Made by a program: the position numbers and the translations under genes. Below, one piece after another: positions 25,168 through 27,200 of a DNA stretch of 64,000 nucleotides. The stretch comes from Synechococcus sp. MU1643 (GTDB taxonomy: Bacteria > Cyanobacteriota > Cyanobacteriia > PCC-6307 > Cyanobiaceae): the NCBI RefSeq assembly GCF_020514095.1, contig NZ_VTKY01000005.1, positions 62,001 to 126,000 on the forward strand, read 5' to 3'. The notes below the pieces were generated by a model, which saw nothing but the letters and a program-made list of their open reading frames with translations, was not told the origin of the DNA and made no database searches. Each line of letters starts with the position of its first letter. Positions within the stretch are counted from its first letter, which is position 1.

Positions 25168-26304
25168 TCAGTAGCGGGGAATTACAGGATCCACCTGCTG
25201 CGACCAAGCATCAATTCCACCGGTCACATTCGTGGCCGCGATTCCCTGCTGACCCAACAGCTCAACAGCACGCGCAGAGCGCCCCCCGAGCTTGCAGTGC
25301 ACCAAAAGGCGCCGTCCCTCAGCCAAAGCACGAACGCGATCGATCGCCTCTCCACTCTCCAGCGAGGCCAACGGAACCAAGTGACTTCCTTCAATCGAAG
25401 CCACCTCTGCCTCAGCAAGATTGCGCACATCGACAAGCGCAATCTTGTCTGGAGCTGAATCGAGTAAGGCCTTCAGTTCCGTGACAGTGATGGCTTCCAT
25501 CTCCGATGACGCCGGACGGCAAAACTGGCGGTAGTCAATCAGGCTCTCAACCTTCGGTCGGTCTGGATCAACGCGGAGGGTGAGTTCCCGAAATCGCATC
25601 GCCAAGGCATCAACCACCAGAAGTCGACCATCCAGGCAGTCACCGATGCCGGTGATCAATTTGATCGCTTCGGTGGCCTGGAGCAGACCGATCAGCCCAG
25701 GCATCACACCCATCACACCAGCCTCCGAGCAGGATGGAACAGCGTCCGGCGGAGGTGGTTCCGGCAGCAGGTCGCGGTAGTTGGGGCTCGTCGGCGTGCT
25801 GTTGAACACGCTGACCTGGCCGTCAAAGCGCTGCACGGAGCCATAGACGAGGGGTTTCCCAAGCAACACACAGGCGTCGTTGATCAGATACCGGCTGGGA
25901 AAGTTGTCAGTGCCATCACAGACCAAGTCGTAGGCACCGATGAGGTCCAGGGCATTGCCCACAGTCAGCATGTGTTCATGCACCTCCACCTGGCAGTGGG
26001 GATTGAGATCGTGGATCCGCGCGGCGGCCGAGCGGGCCTTGGAACCACCAACCCCGCTGGAGCTGTGGATCACCTGCCGCTGGAGATTGGAGAGCTCCAC
26101 CACATCTCCATCCACGATTCCGATGCGACCCACACCTGCCGCGGCCAGGTACAGCAGCAGAGGAGATCCCAGTCCCCCGCTGCCAACACAGAGCACAGAA
26201 GCAGACTTCAGCCGGAGCTGACCGGCAGGACCAACCTCGGGAAGGATCAGATGGCGGGCGTAGCGCCCCCGCTCATCAGCACTCAGCATCGGTTGGTCAT
26301 GCAT
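25168..26304 (-). CDS. MoeB/ThiF-type adenylyltransferase with C-terminal rhodanese (MoeZ-like)
   Basis: The 378-residue protein has an E1-like domain that adenylates the C-terminal glycine of small sulfur-carrier proteins: GSGGLGSPLLLYLAAAGVG for ATP, VCDGTDNFPSRYLIND for the catalytic region. The last ~110 residues are a rhodanese with the active Cys in LLVHCKLGGRSA. Such E1-rhodanese fusions supply sulfur for molybdopterin, thiamine or thiocarboxylate-dependent cysteine synthesis. It lacks the two zinc-binding CxxC pairs of E. coli MoeB as far as I can see. The ATG overlaps the JAMM gene by eight bases. A more upstream start is rejected because it falls inside that gene. Confidence 0.88.
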   Translation of the reverse strand: MHDQPMLSADERGRYARHLILPEVGPAGQLRLKSASVLCVGSGGLGSPLLLYLAAAGVGRIGIVDGDVVELSNLQRQVIHSSSGVGGSKARSAAARIHDLNPHCQVEVHEHMLTVGNALDLIGAYDLVCDGTDNFPSRYLINDACVLLGKPLVYGSVQRFDGQVSVFNSTPTSPNYRDLLPEPPPPDAVPSCSEAGVMGVMPGLIGLLQATEAIKLITGIGDCLDGRLLVVDALAMRFRELTLRVDPDRPKVESLIDYRQFCRPASSEMEAITVTELKALLDSAPDKIALVDVRNLAEAEVASIEGSHLVPLASLESGEAIDRVRALAEGRRLLVHCKLGGRSARAVELLGQQGIAATNVTGGIDAWSQQVDPVIPRY

Positions 26305-26815
26305 GGTTTTGAGTGTCCCAGAGCTGAATCGGGATTTCATCCACGCTGCGGTCACCATGCAGCCACCAGGCCCGCAGGCCAAGCGAGGCAGAGAGAATCA
26401 GCATCAAACTTTCAGCCTCCCCCCAGCGCCGATCGTGGGGCGAGGGAACGGGCTCGGACGCCGGATGGGAGTGGGCTACACCAAGACAACATTGATGGCG
26501 ATCCCGGGCCCATCGCTGGGCTGCTAACTGCTCCCTGGGATCCACCAGAAACCGTCTACGACGATCGTGGACAGGCCGCTGACCGGATGCCCCTCGTCCC
26601 CAGACATTGCAACAGGGCCAGATCGTGATCAGCCTCAAACAGCCTGCATTTGTCCGTTGTCCCAGCAGCAAGGCACAACCTTCTTCGGGGTGAGGCGCCA
26701 ACAACATGCGGCGCAAATCCGTGTGGCATCGGTAATCAATTTGCAGGACGGATGGCGTAGACCGCGCTGCACCGATACGCTCAGCTGAAATTGTGAAGGA
26801 TTTAGTCGTTCTCAT
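26297..26815 (-). CDS. JAMM/MPN+ metalloprotease-like protein (Mov34 family)
   Basis: The product is a single JAB1/MPN+ domain: Glu in PHPEEGCALLLGQ, then AHSHPASEPVPSPHD giving the H-x-H-x10-D zinc motif. Bacterial JAMM enzymes trim the C-terminus of ubiquitin-like sulfur carriers or remove attached products. It lies directly upstream of, and overlaps, the E1-rhodanese gene. The start is uncertain: ATG 26815 lies head-on against the ATG of the divergent CAAD gene (26814), whereas TTG 26716 or ATG 26707 would remove the first strand of the domain. Confidence 0.78.
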   Translation of the reverse strand: MRTTKSFTISAERIGAARSTPSVLQIDYRCHTDLRRMLLAPHPEEGCALLLGQRTNAGCLRLITIWPCCNVWGRGASGQRPVHDRRRRFLVDPREQLAAQRWARDRHQCCLGVAHSHPASEPVPSPHDRRWGEAESLMLILSASLGLRAWWLHGDRSVDEIPIQLWDTQNHA

Positions 26816-27200
26816 GAGTGACGCCCCCACTGAAGTAAAGGATGCCGCCACAACTGTGACGACACCCGTCGACGCTCCTACTCAGGACGACACCACCTCC
26901 TTTGCTGAGCGCTATAGCGACGTTCTCGGCAAGGTGAACGAAACCCTCGATGGGGTCGACTGGAGCCAGATGGGCCGCATCGGCAAGATCGTCGGCATCT
27001 TTGCGGCCGTGATCATTGCTCAGATCCTGATCAAGGGAATCCTCGACACGATCAATCTGCTGCCAATCGTTCCGGGGCTGCTCGAACTGCTCGGCGTGGT
27101 GGTGGTGGGCCAATGGAGCTGGAAAAACTTGACCACGAGCGAAAAGCGCAATGCTCTGGTCCAGCGTGTTCAAACCCTCCGGAAGGAGTACCTGGGCTGA
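26814..27200 (+). CDS. CAAD-domain (CURT1-like) thylakoid membrane protein
   Basis: The 128-residue protein has an acidic, Thr-rich N-terminus (1-40), an amphipathic stretch, then two membrane helices (about 60-80, GKIVGIFAAVIIAQILIKGI, and 83-103) followed by WSWKNLTTSEKR and a basic helical end. This layout is that of CAAD domains, found fused to some cyanobacterial aminoacyl-tRNA synthetases and homologous to CURT1, which bends thylakoid membranes. I infer a membrane-shaping role. It is head-to-head with the JAMM gene and converges on the fructosamine kinase. Confidence 0.85.
   Translation: MSDAPTEVKDAATTVTTPVDAPTQDDTTSFAERYSDVLGKVNETLDGVDWSQMGRIGKIVGIFAAVIIAQILIKGILDTINLLPIVPGLLELLGVVVVGQWSWKNLTTSEKRNALVQRVQTLRKEYLG

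Follow-up and report, generated by a model that had tools for sequence, protein, structure and literature searches.

In the Pseudomonas thioquinolobactin pathway (QbsD/QbsE) and the Wolinella methionine pathway (HcyD/HcyS), a JAMM peptidase strips the residues that follow the Gly-Gly of a sulfur carrier before its activation by an E1 enzyme. In Mycobacterium, where MoeZ is the E1, the JAMM protein Mec+ cleaves off a cysteine added onto the carrier CysO. The present analysis deals with a stretch of 64,000 nucleotides from Synechococcus sp. MU1643 (contig NZ_VTKY01000005.1, positions 62,001 to 126,000 of the forward strand; hereafter the window), in which a JAMM gene overlaps the gene of an E1-rhodanese. 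Based on sequence comparisons, we assign a probability of roughly 0.7 to the reading that this JAMM matures the sulfur carrier ThiS, trimming pro-ThiS before E1 activation. Both genes are present, the ThiS of the genome carries an encoded serine (Ser) past its glycines (a tail), such tails are nearly restricted to genomes with JAMM, and JAMM-less relatives have a native ThiS, ending at the glycines. Because these relatives nearly always make untailed ThiS, JAMM is the likely remover of the Ser.

QbsD/QbsE and HcyD/HcyS belong to specialised pathways and are each encoded in one operon, whereas the substrate proposed here, ThiS, is encoded on another contig. The Mec+/CysO/MoeZ set shares with this genome the combination of a JAMM, a carrier and a MoeZ-type E1. 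It had been offered as an example in an earlier note on this DNA, but it fits poorly: no CysO-like carrier was found in the genome, and the tail is genome-encoded rather than an added cysteine.

According to the accessible part of Iyer et al. 2006 (PMC1779556), cyanobacterial operons of JAB and E1-rhodanese form type 4b; a row of Table 1 gives the pair for Prochlorococcus and Synechococcus, and flags Gloeobacter with a ThiS/MoaD-like protein as well. The same part describes JAB proteins as completely absent from the thiamine and molybdenum cofactor (Moco) pathways, and offers only a prediction for the cyanobacterial JAMM-E1 pair. The gene pair examined here is that of the type 4b operons (PMC1779556), whereas the tailed ThiS points to a role in the thiamine pathway. 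In Deinococcus, DRJAMM cuts MoaD-MoaE, leaving a C-terminal Gly, as stated in the accessible part of PMC8832034. As with DRJAMM, a bacterial JAMM would here make the C-terminal Gly of a sulfur carrier of a cofactor pathway, although DRJAMM splits a fusion of the molybdenum pathway and does not remove a single residue (PMC8832034). The gene pair has been known since 2006; neither its link to ThiS nor a paper on JAMM trimming ThiS was found in the open-access literature searched, where the name ThiS is partly confounded with the word "this".

The JAMM-E1 gene pair

The features of the pair, all on the minus strand, are the following.

26297..26815, minus strand: JAMM/MPN+ (Prok-JAB, M67-type) metallopeptidase gene, 172 amino acids; proposed pro-ThiS maturase
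26432..26473, minus strand: JAMM catalytic motif HSHPASEPVPSPHD, H115 to D128, read in translation
26681..26683, minus strand: codon for the upstream glutamate E45 of the JAMM catalytic site, in a P-E-E-G-C context
25168..26304, minus strand: MoeZ-type E1 adenylyltransferase-rhodanese gene, 378 amino acids, intact
26297..26304, minus strand: 8-base overlap ATGCATGA between the JAMM end and the E1 start

The earlier note had described a JAMM gene (HSHP, H-x-H-x10-D) overlapping an E1-rhodanese gene by eight bases on the same strand, and this description holds. The JAMM protein matches Pfam Prok-JAB (PF14464) with an E-value of 2.5e-16 and 60 bits (cut-off 25). Its HSH-x7-S-x2-D segment is an H-x-H-x10-D and, with the upstream glutamate, makes up the JAMM/MPN+ motif. 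In an alignment of the window's own protein with 13 extracted homologues picked for diversity, residues P43, E45, H115, S116, H117, P118, S125 and D128 are unvaried in 14/14 sequences. Among solved chains, the JAMM profile retrieves 2KCQ (E=3.1e-28) and 2KKS (9.1e-23), which bear only the names Mov34/MPN/PAD-1 family and uncharacterized protein, followed by JAMM1 5LDA/5LD9 (1.4e-13 / 1.9e-13). The closest curated family is the desampylase NF041370 (HvJAMM1 type), with a score well under its cut-off (34.3 vs 130 bits). A structure model computed from one sequence was unusable (predicted local distance difference test, pLDDT, of 33.7) and was set aside. The start codon of JAMM is uncertain, as homology starts only at about residue 22-32.

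The E1 protein matches Pfam ThiF (E=1.3e-76) and a C-terminal Rhodanese (E=4.6e-10), both above cut-off, and the active-site Cys loop of the rhodanese reads HCKLGGRS, as expected for the MoeZ/MOCS3 domain type. It passes the NCBIfam MoeB subfamily NF004281 (289.5 vs 266) and stays below the full-length equivalog cut-offs of NF005646 (533.2 vs 633) and NF005902 MoeZ (450.4 vs 647). With this protein as query, a genome search at E<=1e-6 retrieves no other full-length E1; the second match spans the rhodanese part only.

In what follows, G-numbers denote panel genomes, L-numbers extracted loci, and the family is that of the host. A motif scan finds JAMM and E1 adjacent on one strand in 29/30 loci of the genus, own included; in the thirtieth (L030), E1 adjoins the homology match that fetched the locus, the JAMM having been missed by the strict regular expression. 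JAMM is present in 47/59 relatives, own included (single-sequence search), and, with a 14-row profile, in 136/151 genomes of the family panel and in 70/194 genomes of a phylum panel, many of them from other classes. The pair is therefore conserved in related strains, a point on which the earlier note had made its proposal depend: besides its presence in the family panel, JAMM stands beside E1 in the loci inspected. An assignment of JAMM as a JAB protein of a phage or integrative element was rejected because of its single Prok-JAB domain and conserved E1-rhodanese context.

Sulfur carriers of the source genome

The genome (2.07 Mb, 99.99% complete) holds two PF02597 matches at E<=10. As both lie on other contigs (C2 and C11) than the window (C5), this whole-genome scan found no ThiS-family protein in the window, in agreement with the earlier note, which had seen no small Gly-Gly-ending carrier there and had proposed searching the genome for one. 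One match is MoaD, whose C-terminus, ...FLPPFTGG, is a native Gly-Gly. The other is ThiS, 72 amino acids long, encoded on C11 next to thiE; it passes the TIGR01683 equivalog cut-off (55.5 vs 37.45 bits), and its neighbour passes that of thiE. The C-terminus of ThiS, ...EIVTIVGGGS, departs from Gly-Gly by one Ser encoded past GGG. Outside the host family, most of the cyanobacterial ThiS proteins that were read stop at GGG, which aligns with the Gly-Gly terminus of E. coli ThiS. For sulfur loading, ThiS chemistry requires that the carboxylate of the last glycine be free; a ThiS with a terminal Ser would accordingly be expected to depend on trimming. Most picocyanobacteria examined, the host included, make a ThiS with an extra residue that should block sulfur loading.

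A carrier with residues beyond Gly-Gly, as in QbsD- or HcyD-like trimming, is thus found in the same genome as JAMM. The earlier note had left the choice between a carrier encoded elsewhere and a different protein; a ThiS ending in GGGS on another contig, with tails occurring almost only alongside JAMM, favours the former. Two other assignments were rejected: trimming of MoaD, all MoaD ends read being native Gly-Gly, and a Mec+-like action in this genome, where PF02597 gives only MoaD and ThiS and no CysO-like carrier was found.

In the proposed mechanism, ThiS would be translated as a pro-form, ...EIVTIVGGG-Ser, and JAMM would hydrolyse the Gly-Ser bond, exposing ...GGG. The overlapping E1-rhodanese would then adenylate the freed carboxylate and supply the sulfur, and the ThiS-thiocarboxylate would go to thiazole synthesis, presumably by way of ThiG. 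MoaD, with its native Gly-Gly, would use the same E1 untrimmed.

Distribution of JAMM and of the ThiS tail

Across 202 cyanobacterial genome records (57 + 12 + 90 + 43, including a few duplicates), a tailed ThiS occurs with JAMM in 86 and without it in 6, and a native ThiS with JAMM in 67 and without it in 43 (Fisher p=2.6e-8, a value that ignores shared ancestry). The earlier note had proposed testing whether JAMM tracks a carrier across cyanobacteria; in these records, a tailed ThiS occurs almost only where JAMM does. When records that agree in ThiS sequence, tail and JAMM state are merged, the counts become, in the same order, 81, 5, 65 and 43. Removing eight genomes in which E1 was not detected (G012, G013, G014, G016, G354, G382, G376 and G388) leaves 86, 1, 67 and 40 (p=3.2e-11, again ignoring shared ancestry). 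Five of the six tailed genomes without JAMM (G012, G013, G014, G016 and G354) are among these, E1 being undetectable at E<=1e-40, and the locus may therefore sit in an assembly gap; the JAMM state of the first four comes from the single-sequence search only. In a subset of 43 of the 80 named genomes, selected by the analyst, all tails (21/21) are accompanied by JAMM, while native ThiS occurs in 12 genomes with JAMM and 10 without it. Synechococcus WH7803 (L305) has a tailed ThiS together with JAMM. The named genomes partly repeat the G panel, G375 and G252 having the same coordinates.

Within the family panel, the ThiS end was read under the genome's own handle in 61/151 cases, comprising all 15 genomes without JAMM and 46/136 of those with it; ThiS was not found in G347, and the ThiS ends of G019 and G051 were left unread. 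Two genomes counted as JAMM-bearing, both with native ThiS, have stop-bearing matches: G100, with one stop, and G107, whose short fragment (G107:C1:1062454-1062651) holds three and is probably a decaying gene. Vasconcelosia (L292), counted as tailed, has the tail SGG, which itself supplies a terminal Gly-Gly. Long tails past GGG are seen in G242 (L185), G199 (L205) and G098 (L233), with 14, 6 and 7 residues, respectively; all three genomes bear JAMM.

Losses of JAMM with native ThiS

Genus g27 comprises 12 panel genomes of 1.6-1.7 Mb with E1 loci of 31-33% guanine-cytosine (GC) content, and by size and GC is presumably Prochlorococcus-like. JAMM is absent in 12/12, ThiS is native in 12/12 and E1 is kept in 12/12; the ThiS of G308, read from DNA, ends ...LEIVAIVGGG-stop. 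The five g27 E1 loci inspected (L244, L247, L245, L249 and L255) have the same flanking genes, with JAMM gone. Prochlorococcus sp. AG-436-M02 likewise keeps E1 in this gene order and lacks JAMM, and its ThiS is native. AG-439-G12 (L302), a second named Prochlorococcus, has a native ThiS and no JAMM, and its E1 was not found. In G279, a stop-interrupted JAMM N-terminus lies between an intact E1 and the neighbouring gene (L241, about 1350-1425; best E=7e-6, the database being very small), and ThiS is native; its JAMM-bearing congener G255 also has a native ThiS. Among the neighbourhoods in which a decayed JAMM was sought (AG-436-M02, G279, L244, L245, L249 and L255), the remnant is convincing in G279 only.

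On the E1 tree, g27 and AG-436-M02 group within a single clade that also contains tailed, JAMM-bearing members, and may represent one loss or two. The g27 E1 proteins (L244-L255) sit on a very long stem branch, with 1.17 changes per site, which looks as if constraint had shifted at the loss of JAMM.

The conserved flank on the JAMM side is the following.

26814..27200, plus strand: divergent neighbour, membrane-protein-like, marking the conserved site at which JAMM-less relatives are without JAMM

We take this neighbour to be CAAD. Its ATG at 26814 (plus strand) and the JAMM ATG (26815-26813, minus strand) have two bases in common (CATG, 26813-26816); either start may be misplaced, or this may be a very tight common regulatory junction.

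Probable DNA origin of the ThiS tail

Judged from the DNA, the ThiS tail seems to have arisen where thiS came to overlap a promoter-like motif. Among the family's tailed genomes, the motif T-[CT]-[CT]-TA-N-[AG]-[GT]-T begins at the base directly after the GGG codons, in 68/75 distinct windows with JAMM and in 6/6 without it. The Ser codon is TCC in 91/104 cases and, below 42% GC, still in 15/19. SYS tails (e.g. L100, L111, L129 and L157) are encoded as TCC-TAC-AGT, with a change in the motif's stop. In tailed picocyanobacteria (e.g. L002, about 1480-1500), the thiS stop codon lies within a conserved TTCCTARAGT-like motif just ahead of the next gene. Ahead of the next gene, TANANT looks like a -10 box, and the motif may be a promoter. 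Where family genomes with JAMM have a native ThiS, it lies 42-49 bases downstream in 3/5 distinct windows (G247, G255 and G387), the other two having looser look-alikes. As controls, the motif occurs anywhere in about 160 bases in 6/89 native and 1/7 tailed windows outside the family, and in 13% of base-shuffled native windows of the family. It is also present in 12/15 JAMM-less native windows of the family, all from g27, at +39/40 or +85/86 in AT-rich DNA, where it may match by chance.

On the E1 tree, which samples part of the family and leaves many tailed genera out, the earliest family branches are native and, except for G279, JAMM-bearing (moderate support). It therefore seems that the tail is younger than JAMM and originated within the family. 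A scenario that we put forward tentatively, at somewhat less than even odds, is that promoter overlap made a protease indispensable. The ancestor of most picocyanobacteria would have lost about 30-50 intergenic bases downstream of thiS, fusing the thiS end to the promoter-like motif of the next gene, so that the TAG of the motif became the new thiS stop. Every ThiS would have gained in this way a Ser that blocks sulfur loading. A pre-existing JAMM, kept for another carrier, would have been able to remove this Ser, and the cell would thereby have become dependent on JAMM for vitamin B1. Prochlorococcus-like lineages of low GC would later have regained a native stop, and then lost JAMM.

Carriers beside E1 in other genomes

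In outgroup genomes G047 and G038, JAMM, a carrier of 92-93 amino acids that extends one residue past Gly-Gly, and E1 adjoin on one strand, an arrangement that hints at the other role of JAMM.

L117 2508-2786: outgroup carrier between JAMM and E1, ending ...AGGL
L118 3209-3490: outgroup carrier between JAMM and E1, ending ...AGGL

In G245 (L242), E1 lies in another neighbourhood, adjoining a 95-amino-acid CysO-like carrier (2633-2917) that ends in a native AVAGG, with no JAMM beside it.

Alternative explanations

Several observations weigh against the maturation of ThiS by JAMM. The thiS gene (C11) is unlinked to JAMM (C5). G245, 90% complete, has a tail and E1, and JAMM was not found in it; it is the sole standing exception. 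Sixty-seven JAMM-bearing genomes have a native ThiS; trimming of ThiS is therefore not the only role of the JAMM family, and JAMM probably has another, older one. Outside the family, tails are accompanied by JAMM in 7/7 distinct windows and native ends in 61/89, counts that are suggestive only. On the ThiS tree, which has few columns and mostly unresolved forks, 4 supported independent pairs show JAMM changing the same way 1.7 times on average and the other way 0.0; on the E1 tree, 2 supported pairs give 1.3 and 0.1. The direction of these tests is mostly consistent; they are underpowered and not significant. Finally, the Ser codon is apparently held by DNA constraint, and its conservation is therefore no sign of selection for a JAMM substrate; an explanation in such terms was dropped, codon and stop being conserved as DNA.

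The native ThiS of those 67 genomes fits an explanation in which JAMM acts mainly on another substrate, either a CysO-like carrier, in a Mec+-like manner, or conjugates, another peptidase trimming ThiS. We consider this unlikely. CysO-like carriers ending ...AGG are frequent outside the family, and the four family members with JAMM and native ThiS that were read from the G panel (G247, G252, G255 and G259) each have a 261-bp match of carrier size. However, 14 genomes of the same genus have two PF02597 matches each (MoaD, and ThiS where read), and all of them keep JAMM. Furthermore, 7/8 JAMM-less genomes outside the family (G040, G041, G048, G050, G051, G055 and G057; not G043) retain a CysO-like carrier, which therefore does not need JAMM.

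Somewhat less probable again is a ubiquitin-like system, in which E1 would conjugate ThiS or MoaD to proteins and JAMM would remove them. Such a role agrees with the prediction for E1-JAB pairs in the accessible part of Iyer et al. (PMC1779556) and with archaeal HvJAMM1, which acts in this way on SAMP1 according to the accessible part of PMC4443979; the curated family closest to JAMM is also the desampylase, though under its cut-off. It would leave the tail-JAMM association unexplained, and the E1 has a rhodanese domain like the sulfur-relay MoeZ. As for the idea that these cells tolerate the additional Ser, or do not employ ThiS in thiocarboxylate form, with shared ancestry accounting for the association, the position of the Ser codon within a DNA motif whose conservation seems to have a different cause and the lack of significance of the ancestry-aware tests speak in its favour. 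We nevertheless regard it as very improbable, given the need of known ThiS chemistry for a C-terminal Gly carboxylate, the JAMM found with every tail outside the family, and the native ThiS of all JAMM-less family genomes retaining E1, bar G245.

Implications

If JAMM does mature ThiS, vitamin B1 synthesis in most picocyanobacteria, which are very abundant ocean phototrophs, would need a proteolytic step, unlike that relying on an E. coli-type ThiS. The peptidase would be assayable on one defined bond. With the tail, one could trace how regulatory DNA came to lengthen a protein by one residue, and how a dependency was first acquired and later lost. Carrier-trimming JAMM peptidases would thereby be extended to vitamin B1 synthesis.
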